39,791 bases of DNA from a virus, in the IMG/VR virus record IMGVR_UViG_3300044516_001232, positions 1 through 39,791 of that record. One strand, 5' to 3'. Under the pieces are notes generated by a model. It made no database searches, had not been told where the DNA came from, and saw only the letters and a list, made by a program, of their open reading frames with translations. The translations under genes and the position numbers were made by a program. Positions within the stretch are counted from its first letter, which is position 1, and the number at the start of each line of letters is the position of its first letter. Positions 6,611 to 35,281 of the stretch are shown piece after piece.

Positions 6611-6901
6611 ATGCCTTTAGTACAACCTACATTAAATCTTGCATTAGAACAGGCATTTGATAAAGCGATGTTTGTCTTTGCTGAAACTATTGCAAATAGT
6701 CCGCAAGGAACTGATGTTGCTGATAAAGCAAGAAAGGCTGCAGCCAAAACCTTTGCTACCATAGCAACTCCTGCTATTGATCTTTATATTAAATCTGCAA
6801 CTATTACAATACCGCCAGGGCAAGTGGTTTCATCTGTTGGTCCAACTGGTCCGGTATTAGGTGCGACAACAGTACCATCGCCTCCAGCAATTATTATTTA
6901 A
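6611..6901 (+). CDS. Small spike-linked structural protein, function unknown
   Basis: Encodes 96 residues. It begins three bases after the spike gene's stop, so the two are almost certainly co-translated. Residues 1-55 are helical and Ala-rich; residues 58-96 are a beta/Pro-Gly tail (DLYIKSATITIPPGQVV, then GPTGPVLG and SPPAIII). The Pro/Gly/Thr ending resembles the last residues of the spike itself (GAPTSPPIVP). Small proteins of this shape are often encoded beside spikes in large myoviruses. A role as spike-tip partner or spike assembly factor is inference; I do not recognise a defined family and see no PAAR-type zinc motif. Confidence 0.65.
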   Translation: MPLVQPTLNLALEQAFDKAMFVFAETIANSPQGTDVADKARKAAAKTFATIATPAIDLYIKSATITIPPGQVVSSVGPTGPVLGATTVPSPPAIII

Positions 6902-6921: not shown

Positions 6922-6929
6922 TATAAATA
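6922..6929 (+). promoter_or_regulatory. T4-type late-promoter-like box (TATAAATA) before the S1-like gene
   Basis: An exact match to the T4 late promoter core TATAAATA lies in the 85-base non-coding gap before the S1-like gene, 57 bases ahead of its ATG. A second A/T-rich box (ATATATAATC) follows at about 6951-6960. The same octamer also occurs by chance inside a coding region at 3877-3884, so sequence alone is weak support. The intergenic position is what makes it plausible. Confidence 0.4.
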
Positions 6930-6986: not shown

Positions 6987-8141
6987 ATGATCGAACAAGA
7001 AATTACAATTAGGGTCAGTGATGATCCATTTGACACAAAAACATTCAAAGTTAGAGTACCTAAAGGAACAAAAATTTTATGTACAGAACCTTATGCAATT
7101 GAAGCGTTAGCTCAATATGGCTTAATGGAATCTGTTGAGGATCAAATCAAATTATGTGAAACTCGACAGTCATATAGTACAGAAGGTTCAATTATTTCCA
7201 TAACAAAAGATAAAGATGGAAATAAGATAAGTGCATTAATTGATATTGGTACAAAGTATACTGCTTCATGTTCTTTAATTAAAGAGCCTAAATCAATTCT
7301 TGACCAACTTGAAGTTGGTATGATTGTTAATGTTAAGATTAAGTCAGGCGCTCATGGTATAATTACTGCTTCAATATCTGATGCTATAGATGAAGTTAAG
7401 ACCAATGAAATCATGAAATCTATTGGTGATAAGACCGTTGGATTTACCGGTAAGATCACTGAACTTATTCATGGTGGCTACTGGGTTGAGGTAGGTGGTA
7501 TAAAATGCTTTATGCCAGGATCATTGGCCGGCCTTAATAAATTACATAATTTTGAATCTTTAGTTGGCCAGGAACTTATTGTTATGCCAATATCATTCTC
7601 TGATGAAAAGAATACTATTATTGTATCTCACCGAGCATATCTTAAGACATTAATTCCTTCAGCACTCGATGATTTACGAGAAAATGTTAAACAACCTATA
7701 ACTGGTTTTGTGACCGGTACAACTAAGTTTGGTGTATTTGCCGAATTTAATAAATGCTTAACTGGATTAATTCCTGATACTGTATTGGATGATACAACTC
7801 GTCAACTGTTTGAAAGGGACGGCATTAAGCCAGGTGATAGTATATCTTTCTGGGTACAGGAAATAGTTTCCGATAAGAAAATAATTTTAACGCAACAAGG
7901 ACCTCGTGAAGATATTTGGGATGATGCCGCTGAAAAATATAAGCCAATGATGGTAACATCAGGCACCGTTACCAAGGTTACTAAGTATGGTGCATTTGTT
8001 GAATTAGAAAAAGGTATTAGCGGGTTAATTCATAAAACCAAGTTAAAGGATACTCCGATTAATAGAGGTGATAAAGTTAATATCAAAATCTTAAGTATTA
8101 GTCCAAGCGATAGAAAGATTGCAATGTCATTAATTGACTAA
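6987..8141 (+). CDS. Multi-S1-domain RNA-binding protein resembling ribosomal protein bS1
   Basis: Encodes 384 residues. After a 60-residue N-terminal segment unlike S1, I see four S1-type OB repeats at about 66-130, 150-215, 236-305 and 318-384. Repeat 2 has the bS1-like signature (VGFTGKITELIHGGYWVEVG, then CFMPGSLAG and a strand ending IIVSHR). Repeats 3 and 4 show the classic GFVTGTTKFGVFAEF...GLIPDT and SGTVTKVTKYGAFVELEKG...GLIHKT patterns. bS1 binds mRNA and helps the 30S subunit start translation; a phage copy could favour phage mRNAs or act as an RNA chaperone. It might replace or compete with host bS1, which has more repeats. No nuclease or PNPase domain is present. The gene stands alone behind an 85-base gap with promoter-like boxes, unlike the coupled baseplate genes around it. 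Confidence 0.88.
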   Translation: MIEQEITIRVSDDPFDTKTFKVRVPKGTKILCTEPYAIEALAQYGLMESVEDQIKLCETRQSYSTEGSIISITKDKDGNKISALIDIGTKYTASCSLIKEPKSILDQLEVGMIVNVKIKSGAHGIITASISDAIDEVKTNEIMKSIGDKTVGFTGKITELIHGGYWVEVGGIKCFMPGSLAGLNKLHNFESLVGQELIVMPISFSDEKNTIIVSHRAYLKTLIPSALDDLRENVKQPITGFVTGTTKFGVFAEFNKCLTGLIPDTVLDDTTRQLFERDGIKPGDSISFWVQEIVSDKKIILTQQGPREDIWDDAAEKYKPMMVTSGTVTKVTKYGAFVELEKGISGLIHKTKLKDTPINRGDKVNIKILSISPSDRKIAMSLID

Positions 8142-8160
8142 CCGTTTTGTGGTTGGAATA

Positions 8161-8168
8161 TATAAACA
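8161..8168 (+). promoter_or_regulatory. Late-promoter-like box (TATAAACA) before the amidoligase gene
   Basis: In the 40-base gap before the amidoligase gene, GAATATATAAACAA contains a one-mismatch version of the T4 late core TATAAATA, 13 bases before the ATG. Its context GAATATATAAA is shared with the box upstream of the gp32-type gene (35299-35310), which supports a common promoter element. Such a short spacing would give a very short leader. Confidence 0.38.
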
Positions 8169-8181
8169 AATTAGATAGTGA

Positions 8182-9480
8182 ATGTATTCCAACGAACAAC
8201 TTAATGCAATTTACTCTTCAAAAATAGGGTTTGAATTTGAATTCTTTGCTAATGAAGATATTCAAAAAGCAAAGGAAAGTGTTGCAAATGCTCTTAATAA
8301 GAAGGTTAGGATAGAGGAAAAAGCTCATAGCGATTTTGCTCCAACTGCTGATGTTTTTAAGATGGAACCTGATAATTCAGGTGGAACCGGCATGATAGAA
8401 CTCGTGACCGGTTCTTTACCTTTTGTTGAGTCTAAACTTATCTTAGCAAAAATGCTAAAGTGGATAAGAGAAAATGGCTCAACTAATGATAGATGTTCAA
8501 TTCACGTTAACATTTCATTTGATGGTAAAAAGTTAGGACCTACTGCAAATATGACAAAACTTGATATTGGCAAGTTTGTTCTTAACTTTGATGAAGATAA
8601 AGTATATGAAGCTTTTCCTAATAGAAAGGATTCTGTTTATGCTAAGTCTATTAAGTTTATAGTACCTCTTAGTGGTATGACACAGCCTTCGCCTGAAAGA
8701 GCTCTTTGGAAAAACTATATGTTTGTAAATGAAAAATATTATGGCATAAATTTTACAAAGATTCCTAAAGGCTATATTGAATTTCGTTACCTTGGAGGAG
8801 CAGACTATGAAAAGAAGTATTCTACCATTTTATCAATGATGGAACATTTTATTACTTCACTATATGAAACTCTTGATAACCCGGGGTACAGCCCAGAAGA
8901 TATTAAAAGACTAAACCTGGTTTTAGAAAAGCATAGAGGTGTTGTTCAATCATATAAGACCTATGAAAAGTTTAAGGAAGTATATCCTAACATAACATTA
9001 TTGGTTGATCTTCAGTCTTCTAAGCAAATAGTTCAAATGTACTATCCAAAGATAAGAGATAAGGTTTTTGAATTGTTGACTAAAGCTGATATGGATAGCG
9101 GTCTAATTAATTATGATTCTGATACAGGAAAGATGCAAATTAAAGATGCCGATCTTAAAAGATGTTTTGAGATCACCGGTGTTGATATTGTAGAATGTAA
9201 AGTAAAAGGAAACATAAAAGGCTGCGATATCTTTGATTCTGAAATACATGATGCTTCTCTATTTGAATCAAATGTATTTGGTGGAAGTACCGTTACTGGT
9301 TGTAAAGTTGAGGATTCATATGTTAGTAGAAATGTAATTGTTGATAACTGCTATGTGTTTGGACATAGAGGAGTATTTAGCGGTGAAATGGTTGGTGGTA
9401 TCTTTAGACAAGGTAGAGCCACAAAGTTTGCTTCCTTTTCTGAATCAACTGAGGTAATTGAAGTTGAAAAAATTGATTAA
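8182..9480 (+). CDS. Amidoligase-family enzyme fused to a beta-helix-like C-terminal domain
   Basis: Encodes 432 residues in two parts. Residues 1-230 carry the conserved points of the amidoligase (COOH-NH2 ligase, glutamine-synthetase-like) family: GFEFEF at 16-21, EPDNS followed by IELVTG at 62-77, CSIHVNIS at 105-112 and YIEFRYLGG at 198-206. These correspond to the family's GxExE, DxS...ELV, HVH/N and ExR positions that hold ATP, metal and substrate. Such enzymes join a carboxyl and an amine, as in peptide tagging or cell-wall modification. Residues about 333-410 form repeated short beta units (VDIVECKVKGNIKGCDIF, SLFESNVFGGSTVTGCKVED) like a left- or right-handed beta-helix. Linkage to baseplate genes raises the option of a virion-associated or host-surface/protein-modifying enzyme. 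The substrate is unknown. Confidence 0.82.
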   Translation: MYSNEQLNAIYSSKIGFEFEFFANEDIQKAKESVANALNKKVRIEEKAHSDFAPTADVFKMEPDNSGGTGMIELVTGSLPFVESKLILAKMLKWIRENGSTNDRCSIHVNISFDGKKLGPTANMTKLDIGKFVLNFDEDKVYEAFPNRKDSVYAKSIKFIVPLSGMTQPSPERALWKNYMFVNEKYYGINFTKIPKGYIEFRYLGGADYEKKYSTILSMMEHFITSLYETLDNPGYSPEDIKRLNLVLEKHRGVVQSYKTYEKFKEVYPNITLLVDLQSSKQIVQMYYPKIRDKVFELLTKADMDSGLINYDSDTGKMQIKDADLKRCFEITGVDIVECKVKGNIKGCDIFDSEIHDASLFESNVFGGSTVTGCKVEDSYVSRNVIVDNCYVFGHRGVFSGEMVGGIFRQGRATKFASFSESTEVIEVEKID

Positions 9481-9485
9481 AGAAT

Positions 9486-10328
9486 ATGTCTTACGTAAAT
9501 TGTTCTGACCCGCATACACAGGCCTGTTTAGATGCATTAATTAAAGAAATTAATGATGATCTAACTATAGGCTGTCAAATACCCTTTACAGTTCCTAAGA
9601 ATGAACTGGCCAGAATTATCAATCGTGCAAAGGATTACTTTTATAAAATATATGAAGACAGTGTAGAGGAAATGTATATTGCTTTACCTGCTACTGCATG
9701 GCAAAAAAGAGATTTTAATAAAGGCATTGATGACTCAAGCGATACTTTATCAAGTGCTAATGTAAATAGTACAAGAGGTATTGTACAAATGCCATCGACG
9801 GTATATTCAGTGAATAATGTTTTTGAATGGAACGGGTTTGGTGGAGAAGATGGTGGATTTGGAAATAACTCTTTTTCTGCAGGTGATATAGATTTTTCAA
9901 TTGATAAGTTTATCTATTCTGATACTTATGGTGCTGGAATAGGCTCAGAGAATCTCATGTATTATGTTATTAATTCAAGCTTTATTGATACTGCACGCCA
10001 GGTATTACTTCCACAAATTTCATATTCATATAATAGGTTAACTCATAAGTTTAGATTCCAAGGAGAATTGCCAACCCATGCATGTATATTCCAGGTATAT
10101 AACACAATTCCTGATTGTGCTTTATATCAAGATGAAATGTTTATTAGATATTGTATAGCCAAGGCAAAAATGCAATTAGCTAGAATATTAGGAACATTCT
10201 CATTTAATTTACCCGGTAACATTACTATAAACTATGATATGATAGCATCAGAAGGTAAAGACGAAATAGATGCAATCATCGAAGAGATTAAAGGCGATGA
10301 AGGGGTTGACTACTTTTATACTGGCTAA
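9486..10328 (+). CDS. Conserved-looking virion protein, function unknown
   Basis: Encodes 280 residues, starting five bases after the amidoligase stop. The N-terminal helix reads ELARIINRAKDYFYKIYEDS. The middle is Gly/Asn/Ser-rich (about 108-140). The C-terminal part is the most characteristic: YQDEMFIRYCIAKAKMQLAR, then GTFSFNLPGNITINYDMIAS and EGKDEIDAIIEEIKG. I associate this 'Asp-Glu-helix, Leu-Pro-Gly-x-Ile, Glu-Gly-rich helix' ending with structural proteins of T4-like and jumbo myoviruses, in connector or tail positions, but cannot name the family. It precedes the gp25-type wedge gene after a 57-base gap holding an inverted repeat. A structural role is likely from context; an enzymatic role is not suggested by any motif. 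Confidence 0.68.
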   Translation: MSYVNCSDPHTQACLDALIKEINDDLTIGCQIPFTVPKNELARIINRAKDYFYKIYEDSVEEMYIALPATAWQKRDFNKGIDDSSDTLSSANVNSTRGIVQMPSTVYSVNNVFEWNGFGGEDGGFGNNSFSAGDIDFSIDKFIYSDTYGAGIGSENLMYYVINSSFIDTARQVLLPQISYSYNRLTHKFRFQGELPTHACIFQVYNTIPDCALYQDEMFIRYCIAKAKMQLARILGTFSFNLPGNITINYDMIASEGKDEIDAIIEEIKGDEGVDYFYTG

Positions 10329-10356
10329 TTTATATTATAAGACCGGTAAATTTTTA

Positions 10357-10385
10357 AGAGAATATATATTAAAAGAATATTCTCT
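10357..10385 (+). promoter_or_regulatory. Perfect 9-bp inverted repeat abutting the gp25-type start codon
   Basis: AGAGAATAT at 10357-10365 is the exact reverse complement of ATATTCTCT at 10377-10385, with an 11-base A/T-rich loop between. The right arm ends on the base before the ATG at 10386. In RNA this hairpin would bury the region in front of the start codon. In T4, late genes such as e and soc use hairpins of this kind to block translation from early read-through transcripts, while transcripts started inside the hairpin lack the left arm and are translated. The same logic here is inference. Confidence 0.5.
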
Positions 10386-10748
10386 ATGATCAACGATATT
10401 TATAGTAGAGGCCCAGCCGAGAATAAGTATACGCCAAATATTATTGACGTAACTGATGGCTTGTCTCAACTAATATTGAAAATAGAAAATGTTCTTTTTA
10501 CAAGAAAGGGTGACGTTTTAGGTGTACCTGATTTTGGATGTAATCTTGAAGATTTACTGTTTTCAATAGTTCTAAATGAAGCAGTAATTGAACAGAGAAT
10601 TGCTTCTCAAATTCAGGCATACTGTTTACCCGATGATAATTTATTTGGGATTAATGTCAGAGTATCTTTTTTTAACACTGAAGGTAGAAACGGTGCTCTT
10701 GTTGATATCTATATAAATGAACAAAGAGTAATTGGAGCACTTTTCTAA
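10386..10748 (+). CDS. Baseplate wedge protein, gp25-like
   Basis: Encodes 120 residues, close to T4 gp25 (132). Family pattern: an N-terminal helix DGLSQLILKIENVLFTRKGD, then the loop VLGVPDFGCNLEDLLF (family form: ry-gxx-p-x-yG-t-x-L-xx-llF), a helix EAVIEQRIASQIQAYCLPD, and beta strands FGINVRVSFFNTEGRNGALVDIYI. gp25/gpW-type proteins sit at the inner ring of the baseplate beside gp6 and are conserved in contractile tails and type VI secretion (TssE). It directly precedes the gp6-type gene, the usual order in contractile systems. Translation may be controlled by the inverted repeat ending at the base before its ATG. Assignment is confident. Confidence 0.87.
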   Translation: MINDIYSRGPAENKYTPNIIDVTDGLSQLILKIENVLFTRKGDVLGVPDFGCNLEDLLFSIVLNEAVIEQRIASQIQAYCLPDDNLFGINVRVSFFNTEGRNGALVDIYINEQRVIGALF

Positions 10749-10762
10749 AAATAGTATAATAA

Positions 10763-12619
10763 ATGTCATTCTTTAGTAAAACGAGATTAAAGGCAAGCCA
10801 ACTGTTCTATGATGCATTTGAATTTTTGCAAAGAACATATGACCAGGCCGCTGAAGTTTTTACACCAGCTTCTCCATTTGGACAGCTATTAACGGTTGTT
10901 GCCAATTTAGGTGAAATGATTTTTTATTACATTGAAGCAGTTGCAACCGAGCTTAATATTACTAGGGCTAGAAACATTGAATCAATTTATGGTCTTTCTA
11001 GATTAACTGGTCATGATCCTACTAGAGGAATATCTGCGCAAGGCGTTATTGGTTTAAGACTTAATACTAAAGCAGGAAACTTATTCAGTGGAGATTATGT
11101 ACAAATCTTAAATGGTGCTAAATTGGAAGTCGGTCAAAATGGCTTAACTTACTTTATTAAATTTGATAGTGACTACATAAGACTCGAAAAAACTAATAAG
11201 CAATTCATTAATGTTGAATTAATCCAAGGCCAAATTGAAACACAAACCTTTACAGGTTCTGGTCTTCCTTTGCAAAGTTACAATTTAACTACAAAGGAAC
11301 CAACTGACCAATACATGGTAACTGTAACTGTTGATGGCGAGATGTGGAAGAAGGTTGATTCATTATATGATATGGGTCCTGGTCATAAAGACTTTATGTG
11401 TAAGACTAGTGTTAATGGCGGTTTAAGTATCTTTTTTGGAAATAATCAATTTGGCTATTTACCTCCACTAGGTTCTATTATCACAGTAACATATGTTAAG
11501 ACTAGGGGATCTACTGGAAACATTGGTGGTAAAAATCTCGATATTAAATTTGTTGATCCTGGTACTGATTATTTAGGGCAAGAGGTTGATCTAAATGAAG
11601 TCTTATCTCTTAATATTGTAAGAAACCCTAATTTTGGTTCAGACAGTGAAGACCCTGCGTTTACCCGTCTTATTGCGCCGTATCAGAGTAATTCATTTGT
11701 TTTGGCAAATCCTAATAACTACATTTACTATTTAAGTAAGTATGATTCATTTTCATTTGTAGATGCATATAATACTAAAGATGATCAATATGTAAGTGAT
11801 GATAATATCATTTACCTATTCTTAATTCCTGACATTAATAAGAAGATCACAAGTGATAAGGATTACTTTAATGTTCCTCTTGAAGAGTTTACATTAACTG
11901 AGGATGAAAAGAATCAGGTATATGAAATCTTAAATAAGAGTGGCCGTCAGGTTGTTACCGCTGAGGTTAGAATAAATGATCCTATTGTTAAAAAGTATGC
12001 AATTAATATTGTAACCCGTTGGATAGAAGGATATGATAAAGATCAATTGGTCACAGCAATTAGAAGTACATTAAATGATTACTTCTTAAAAGTAAACAGA
12101 AGAGATAGAATACCTAGATCTGATTTAATTTCATTAATAGAAGATATTCCAGGAATTGATTCTGTTAATGTATTCTTTATCTCTGAAGAGAATGAAAATG
12201 CAATTAGAAACGGTTTCTATTTTGTTCCGGTTTATGGTGTTGATCCAGCAACCGATCAAAGAGTTCTGATTGAGAATAAGAAAATAGTTTTAATTGAAGG
12301 TGAAGATCCTCAATTAGGATTGGATGAATTTGGAGATATCATTATAGGATCTGATGATATAGCTGTTATAAGAGGTGGATGGCAAGATCGTAATGGAACA
12401 TATTTTGAAGAAACACCAGTTAAGAACGGAATTGGTTCTCTTAATGTATTCTTTAAGAATGTTACTGCTGCTAATCTTTATAATAAAACTCAGCAAGAAA
12501 GGTTTAATGAACTTAAGAGAAATAAGGGAACCACTATTGCTACAAGTAATAATGCAAGAGCAACTAATACCGGTAGACTTTTAGATAACAGTACACAGAA
12601 AGTAATTAAGAATTTATAA
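10763..12619 (+). CDS. Baseplate wedge protein, gp6/baseplate J-like
   Basis: Encodes 618 residues, near T4 gp6 (660). The N-terminal helical region (about 1-85) ends with NITRARNIESIYGLSRLTGH, a common opening of baseplate J proteins. The central region is beta-rich with SGDYVQILNGAKLEVG and later FGNNQFGYLPPLGSIITVTY and YVKTRGSTGNIGG. The C-terminal domain has VTRWIEGYDKDQLVTAIRST, then LNDYFLKVNRRDRIPRSDLI and IEDIPGIDSVNVFF, the J-family arrangement in which an a/b domain pairs wedges. It forms the inner iris of the baseplate with gp25. The stop overlaps the next start in a TAATG junction. A second small frame inside its 3' end is a shadow and is not annotated. Confidence 0.85.
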   Translation: MSFFSKTRLKASQLFYDAFEFLQRTYDQAAEVFTPASPFGQLLTVVANLGEMIFYYIEAVATELNITRARNIESIYGLSRLTGHDPTRGISAQGVIGLRLNTKAGNLFSGDYVQILNGAKLEVGQNGLTYFIKFDSDYIRLEKTNKQFINVELIQGQIETQTFTGSGLPLQSYNLTTKEPTDQYMVTVTVDGEMWKKVDSLYDMGPGHKDFMCKTSVNGGLSIFFGNNQFGYLPPLGSIITVTYVKTRGSTGNIGGKNLDIKFVDPGTDYLGQEVDLNEVLSLNIVRNPNFGSDSEDPAFTRLIAPYQSNSFVLANPNNYIYYLSKYDSFSFVDAYNTKDDQYVSDDNIIYLFLIPDINKKITSDKDYFNVPLEEFTLTEDEKNQVYEILNKSGRQVVTAEVRINDPIVKKYAINIVTRWIEGYDKDQLVTAIRSTLNDYFLKVNRRDRIPRSDLISLIEDIPGIDSVNVFFISEENENAIRNGFYFVPVYGVDPATDQRVLIENKKIVLIEGEDPQLGLDEFGDIIIGSDDIAVIRGGWQDRNGTYFEETPVKNGIGSLNVFFKNVTAANLYNKTQQERFNELKRNKGTTIATSNNARATNTGRLLDNSTQKVIKNL

Positions 12620-34993: not shown

Positions 34994-35281
34994 ATGATAA
35001 ACGCGATAAAAAATAGAATTTTTGTTAAAAAAGATGAGTATCCTGAAAAAATTGGACTTATCTATGTACCTAAATTGGAAGGGCAGTATGCTCCACCTTA
35101 TTCAGGAACAGTCATATCGGTAGGATCTGATATTCTTGATGAAGATATCAAAGTAGGCTGCCGTATTCTTTTTCATGATTTGGCAGGTACTGAATTTATG
35201 TTTAATGACGATAAGATATTTAGTATTAGAGATATTGATGTCATTGGTATAATTACTGATGAAAATTACAATATAGTCTGA
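34994..35281 (+). CDS. GroES-like co-chaperonin (gp31-type)
   Basis: Encodes 95 residues, the size of GroES (97). The order of elements matches GroES: NRIFVKKDEYPEKIGLIYVP (GroES: DRVIVKR...GGIVL, with the mobile loop that binds GroEL), YSGTVISVGSDILDEDIKVG (GroES: RGEVLAVGNG...VKVGD), CRILFHDLAGTEFMFNDDKI (GroES: IVIFNDGYGVKSEKI) and IRDIDVIGII (GroES: ESDILAIV). T4 gp31 replaces host GroES to fold the major capsid protein; a similar role with host GroEL is likely. No GroEL gene is visible here. The gene is preceded by a 66-base A/T-rich gap and followed by a 171-base gap. Confidence is high for the fold. Confidence 0.83.
   Translation: MINAIKNRIFVKKDEYPEKIGLIYVPKLEGQYAPPYSGTVISVGSDILDEDIKVGCRILFHDLAGTEFMFNDDKIFSIRDIDVIGIITDENYNIV

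Follow-up and report, generated by a model that had tools for sequence, protein, structure and literature searches.

A predicted glutamine-synthetase-like amidoligase joined to a pentapeptide-repeat-type solenoid and encoded among phage virion genes

The amidoligase gene and its neighbourhood

The window, the whole stretch of DNA that we analysed computationally, is a 39,791-base virus fragment with T4-like genes, including those for a gp5-like spike, a head-tail adaptor, gp25, gp6, tail tube, gp32, a primase and a UvsW-like helicase. In an annotated collection, the helicase and gp6 of this fragment are nearest to those of the huge phages LR756500-504; Lak phages likewise rank among the top hits. 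At 8182..9480 on the + strand, exactly the open reading frame given in an earlier note on this DNA, lies a gene of 432 codons with an ATG start and full-length relatives in more than 480 IMG/VR contigs. Its product comprises a predicted glutamine-synthetase-like amidoligase domain (residues 13-232; 8218..8877), a middle region that is mostly helical in the AlphaFold2 model (residues 233-320; 8878..9141) and a pentapeptide-repeat-type solenoid with a conserved GGIFRxGR cap (residues 321-432; 9142..9477).

On the same strand, the immediate neighbours are an S1 RNA-binding-domain protein upstream (6987..8141; Pfam S1, E 6.6e-19), inside the virion cluster, and a head-tail adaptor (Ad2-like) protein downstream (9486..10328; PHROG 211, E 5e-13); synteny marks both as conserved, the former in the near group. 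A gp25-like baseplate wedge subunit (10386..10748, by profile matches) and a gp6-like one (10763..12619; PHROG 219, E 2.4e-27) come next, also on the + strand, so the baseplate genes that the earlier note placed next door stand one gene further on. The near-group order is S1, amidoligase, adaptor, gp25, gp6. In the huge-phage group the amidoligase has moved away from S1 and is mostly still near a 609-aa tail-cluster protein, a gp53-like protein, the hub, or the adaptor (neck) and gp25; it is still found with virion genes where the order has been scrambled. Elsewhere in the window, a 96-aa protein between the spike and S1 genes (6611-6901) has a conserved TITIPPGQ...SPPAII C-terminus and no family match, and a GroES-like co-chaperonin gene lies at 34994-35281 (Cpn10, E 1.4e-10).

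Almost every near-group locus has S1 adjoining the amidoligase, and a 462-kb phage has the same pair with small ORFs in between. This pairing would suit an enzyme that modifies the translation apparatus, for instance the phage S1-domain protein encoded next door or a ribosomal protein of the host, as RimK does S6, and the GAMT-like methyltransferase found between S1 and amidoligase in two loci points the same way. In the huge-phage group the two genes are far apart. The link is thus not a general one, and we consider a translation target improbable. The inserted methyltransferase (L009:7384-7962, L010:7387-7962) is related to guanidinoacetate methyltransferase (PDB 1xcj, E 3.6e-10).

Relatives are encoded on 486 stretches in IMG/VR, and a second profile extends the family into the huge-phage group. 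There the gene is present in each of four records, of 634,780, 636,363, 642,428 and 735,411 bases, matched to the four largest complete genomes in PMC7162821. The Pfam amidoligase model misses the huge-phage members searched; such genes would therefore be annotated as hypothetical. Lak phage yielded no amidoligase homologue at E<=1. Among 84,980 bacterial and archaeal genomes, matches occur on just two short contigs, on which ground a cellular origin was rejected; the family is essentially phage-only. Two huge phages also carry second, weak amidoligase-like matches, at LR756502.1 208723-209247 and LR756501.1 380810-381379 (E ~1e-6 to 1e-7); an internal stop interrupts one of them.

Fold and two-domain architecture

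Pfam Amidoligase_2 (PF12224) scores 23.5 bits against the window protein, above its curated cut-off of 22, and matches only 25 of the 82 family members at E<=0.1. The AlphaFold2 model, built from 82 family sequences, has a mean pLDDT of 91.2 and a pTM of 0.86. Foldseek against the PDB returns glutamine synthetases as top matches (E 5.8e-6, probability 1.00), and all 26 matches with E<=0.001 are glutamine synthetases or their homologues; the TM-scores, measured across the whole two-domain chain, are low at ~0.3. A viral structure library gave a full-length match, A0A6J5PQ40 (TM 0.90, 25% identity), together with dozens of phage amidoligases. Assignment as glutamine synthetase proper by sequence was rejected, as profile comparison with E. 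coli GlnA gave no match, and the relation to that enzyme is therefore visible only in the fold comparison. Judged by the model, the window protein very probably has a glutamine-synthetase-like amidoligase fold, the point on which the earlier note had staked its reading.

The motifs picked out in that note are all present: GFEFEF holds the ExE pair E18 and E20 (8233..8241), EPDNS...ELV spans D64 to E73 (DNSGG...E, 8371..8400), HVN supplies H108 and N110 (8503..8511) and IEFR supplies E200 and R202 (EFR, 8779..8787). The Pfam score, the confidence of the model and the Foldseek matches to glutamine synthetase argue that they are not there by chance.

The note had also described a beta-helix of repeated short beta units at residues 333-410. 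The repeats are real, but they are better described as pentapeptide-repeat-type, with solenoid and cap covering ~321-432. Hydrophobic residues are spaced at lag 5 over residues 334-398 (shuffle p = 0.0003), a stronger result than a motif-only pentapeptide test on the C-terminal region (p 0.04, weak alone), and the model places strands about every five residues from 340 to 404. Pfam gives no pentapeptide match for the window protein by itself; Pentapeptide_4 (PF13599) matches 34 of 82 family members, and the family profile matches MfpA and McbG-like pentapeptide proteins in the PDB. Lag-5 spacing, strand spacing and the PF13599 matches in relatives together agree with the five-residue repeat of a square right-handed helix. 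The quadrilateral-helix type is common to MfpA, McbG-like proteins, Qnr and Rfr23, but here the solenoid is only ~100 residues long and joined to an enzyme. It may tether the enzyme or bind its substrate.

Aligned full-length members keep this two-domain architecture, the outlier being the homologue in Agrobacterium phage Atu_ph07 (AUZ94978; PHROG 2443 amidoligase). It has the same domain, the pocket residues and a virion-gene cluster in common with the window gene, but is only 21% identical, carries an extra N-terminal insertion, lacks the solenoid and lies on the strand opposite to its neighbours. By accession offset (portal AUZ94980; capsid AUZ94997 = gp215) it is gp196, within the CDS 170-215 cluster, which as a cluster, rather than for gp196 itself, is described as rich in virion proteins identified by mass spectrometry (PMC6102473).

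Glutamine-synthetase-like amidoligases of phages were described by Iyer et al. 2009, as cited in PMC10580990. With PF12224 proteins the window family has in common the fold, the ExE, His-Asn and ExR residues and occurrence in phages; it differs in its C-terminal solenoid, its virion-gene context and the lack of a GATase or adjacent cyclotransferase. The word undescribed, used in the earlier note, is thus too strong for the enzyme class, known in phages and returned by the dozen in the viral fold search, yet apparently apt for the two-domain, stand-alone, virion-cluster subfamily and for the lineage with an eroded active site described below. What appears new here is the eroded clade, the two-domain architecture and the virion context.

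Pocket conservation and an eroded clade

Across 135 distinct homologues, with identity down to 21-31%, the acidic, histidine and arginine positions that the earlier note relied on are kept. The ExE, Glu, His and ExR residues of a metal/ATP site are each present in 132-134 of the 135 (E18, E73 and E200 in 132; H108, N110 and R202 in 133; E20 and D64 in 134), and the distant Atu_ph07 protein retains them too. The window protein is likely to be enzymatically active, and that an ATP-dependent amide-forming enzyme is encoded among virion proteins is well supported.

The exceptions cluster in three relatives, L017 (gene at L017:1598-2899; E18A, E73N, H108L, E200K), L022 (L022:8001-9302; E18G, D64N, E73S, N110Q, E200D, R202K) and L138 (L138:6001-7302; E18S, E20N, E73D, H108G, E200T, R202K). 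They have lost most catalytic residues, keep a 433-codon frame and the solenoid, and form a single clade (support 100/98), sister to the window protein. In columns that do not vary among 66 live near relatives, the clade differs at 15 of 21 catalytic cells versus 46 of 357 others (Fisher p 7e-9, from three sequences on genome fragments, with cells that are not independent). The non-catalytic changes fall in the N-domain (38/225), the middle region (1/42) and the solenoid (7/90), and live relatives that have diverged to a comparable extent carry 0-1 changes at catalytic positions. At dS ~1 the frames remain intact. Nei-Gojobori estimates near saturation put omega at 0.21-0.27 within the clade, compared with 0.05-0.12 for live pairs and 0.04-0.19 for neighbouring genes.

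Because erosion is concentrated at the pocket while frame and solenoid are kept at a dN/dS of ~0.2, constraint appears to have been lost mainly at the pocket, with a non-catalytic role under selection. Altered instead of absent chemistry is possible in this clade. An AlphaFold model from its three sequences alone reaches a pLDDT of 40, too low to be informative, and the fragments that carry the eroded genes, which are not whole genomes, showed no second amidoligase copy. In L022, the S1 gene and the eroded amidoligase gene are separated by an inserted gene for a 332-aa PKD and leucine-rich-repeat protein (L022:6982-7980).

The three eroded genes, with their intact frames and conserved C-terminal region, and the persistent proximity of the gene to virion genes would fit a protein whose main role is in neck or tail structure or assembly, with the amidoligase fold as its framework and catalysis secondary. 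Outside this clade, however, all eight pocket residues are almost invariant and live pairs are under strong constraint, which argues that catalysis matters, and for the family as a whole we regard a chiefly structural role as rather unlikely. A screen of neighbouring proteins for a substrate site that disappeared along with catalysis in the eroded clade gave scattered changes and no obvious site. S1 has one single column altered in all three eroded relatives, which again speaks against it as the target.

Expression and probable role

A AATATATA box, a probable promoter element, lies at 8157..8164 on the + strand, 25 nt upstream of the start codon. It precedes the amidoligase in 35 of 48 near loci, at 23-28 nt, and in 23 of 37 huge-phage loci, mostly at 12-15 nt, against a background of 1.9% of random 70-mers. 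The same box stands upstream of S1 (30/47), of gp25 (40/49; at 10361 in the window) and, in huge phages, of the 609-aa gene (20/23); operon-internal genes lack it, as seen in the near group for gp6, adaptor, spike and hub. By sequence, AATATATA looks like the promoter of operon-heading virion genes, which makes late expression of the amidoligase likely. A separate candidate, TATAAATA at 6922, was rejected as a T4 late promoter, since it is conserved in 1 of 47 loci against 3.5 expected.

In many relatives the AATATATA box sits in the loop of a hairpin adjoining the start codon, and both partners of some pairs have changed. Pairing holds in 81.8% of cells versus 29-53% when slid, and 20 cells are double changes (0/500 shuffles). 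Folding is strong in the leaders of L138, L019 and L011 (z -5.5 to -7.2); the window's own amidoligase leader has no such hairpin (z -0.7). In T4 genes e, soc, 49 and I-TevI, hairpins of this kind block translation of read-through transcripts (PMC3014915, PMC2988022), and the leaders of L011, L019, L020, L136 and L138, with AATATATA, start-codon hairpin and compensatory changes, resemble the control of e, soc and I-TevI. The leader of the window's gp25-like gene (10350-10388) also has its AATATATA box within a predicted hairpin (z -2.4).

A late enzyme directed at the host wall or at translation could equally have its promoter class and neighbourhood in common with virion genes. Late alteration of the host's wall or surface peptides, which might serve to shut out other phages, draws on the same enzyme fold family and on a role proposed for phage amidoligases in the phiEco32, LUZ24 and RIO-1 cassettes (PMC5498523, PMC10580990). 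Those phages likewise use an amidoligase, but within a multi-gene peptidoglycan-modification cassette of the replication region, surrounded by genes for transcription and replication (PMC5498523), whereas the window gene lies among neck, baseplate and tail genes. The adjacent GATase and cyclotransferase of the phiEco32/RIO-1 cassette are missing as well. GATase (PF13522) was found in none of nine relative records searched, cyclotransferase (GGACT, PF06094) in three huge phages of the nine, tens to hundreds of kb off or unlinked, and neither among the window proteins scanned. The locus is therefore not the known multi-gene cassette, and a wall target seems to us unlikely, if slightly less so than a chiefly structural role.

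Many glutamine-synthetase-fold ligases make small gamma-glutamyl or peptide metabolites. For this family such a product is the least probable of the roles considered here, given the attached solenoid, the site among virion genes and the lack of recognised pathway genes nearby.

Gene context, promoter class, missing pathway partners and the attached solenoid favour a late phage protein as substrate. Our preferred explanation, held tentatively, is an assembly-time amidoligase that modifies such a protein, with the solenoid as a docking or structural module. We propose a model where a stand-alone amidoligase with a C-terminal solenoid, probably under its own promoter, is made together with neck and baseplate proteins. 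Using ATP, it would activate a carboxylate, either a glutamate side chain or a C-terminus, as an acyl phosphate in a metal-binding pocket formed by E18, E20, E73, H108 and E200 with R202, and attack by an amine would yield an amide. The substrate, most likely a late phage protein, would be modified or cross-linked at assembly, and the solenoid would dock the enzyme onto it or onto the particle. In one lineage the chemistry would have been lost and the protein retained for a binding or structural role. That loss counts against the preferred explanation, as it implies that some of these phages can do without the modification, and so does the want of an obvious co-lost site in the neighbouring proteins. 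It is tempting to speculate further, although we think it unlikely in full, that a particle-associated, pentapeptide-guided amidoligase places isopeptide or glutamyl marks on a neck or tail protein as T4-like and huge phages assemble, and turned purely structural in one lineage.

In a broader context, this enzyme belongs to the particle-building genes of hundreds of environmental phages, those with the largest complete genomes of a 2020 survey among them. Covalent modification of a phage or host protein is therefore probably common in such phages. The eroded clade provides a natural control that separates the chemistry of the enzyme from its role as a scaffold.
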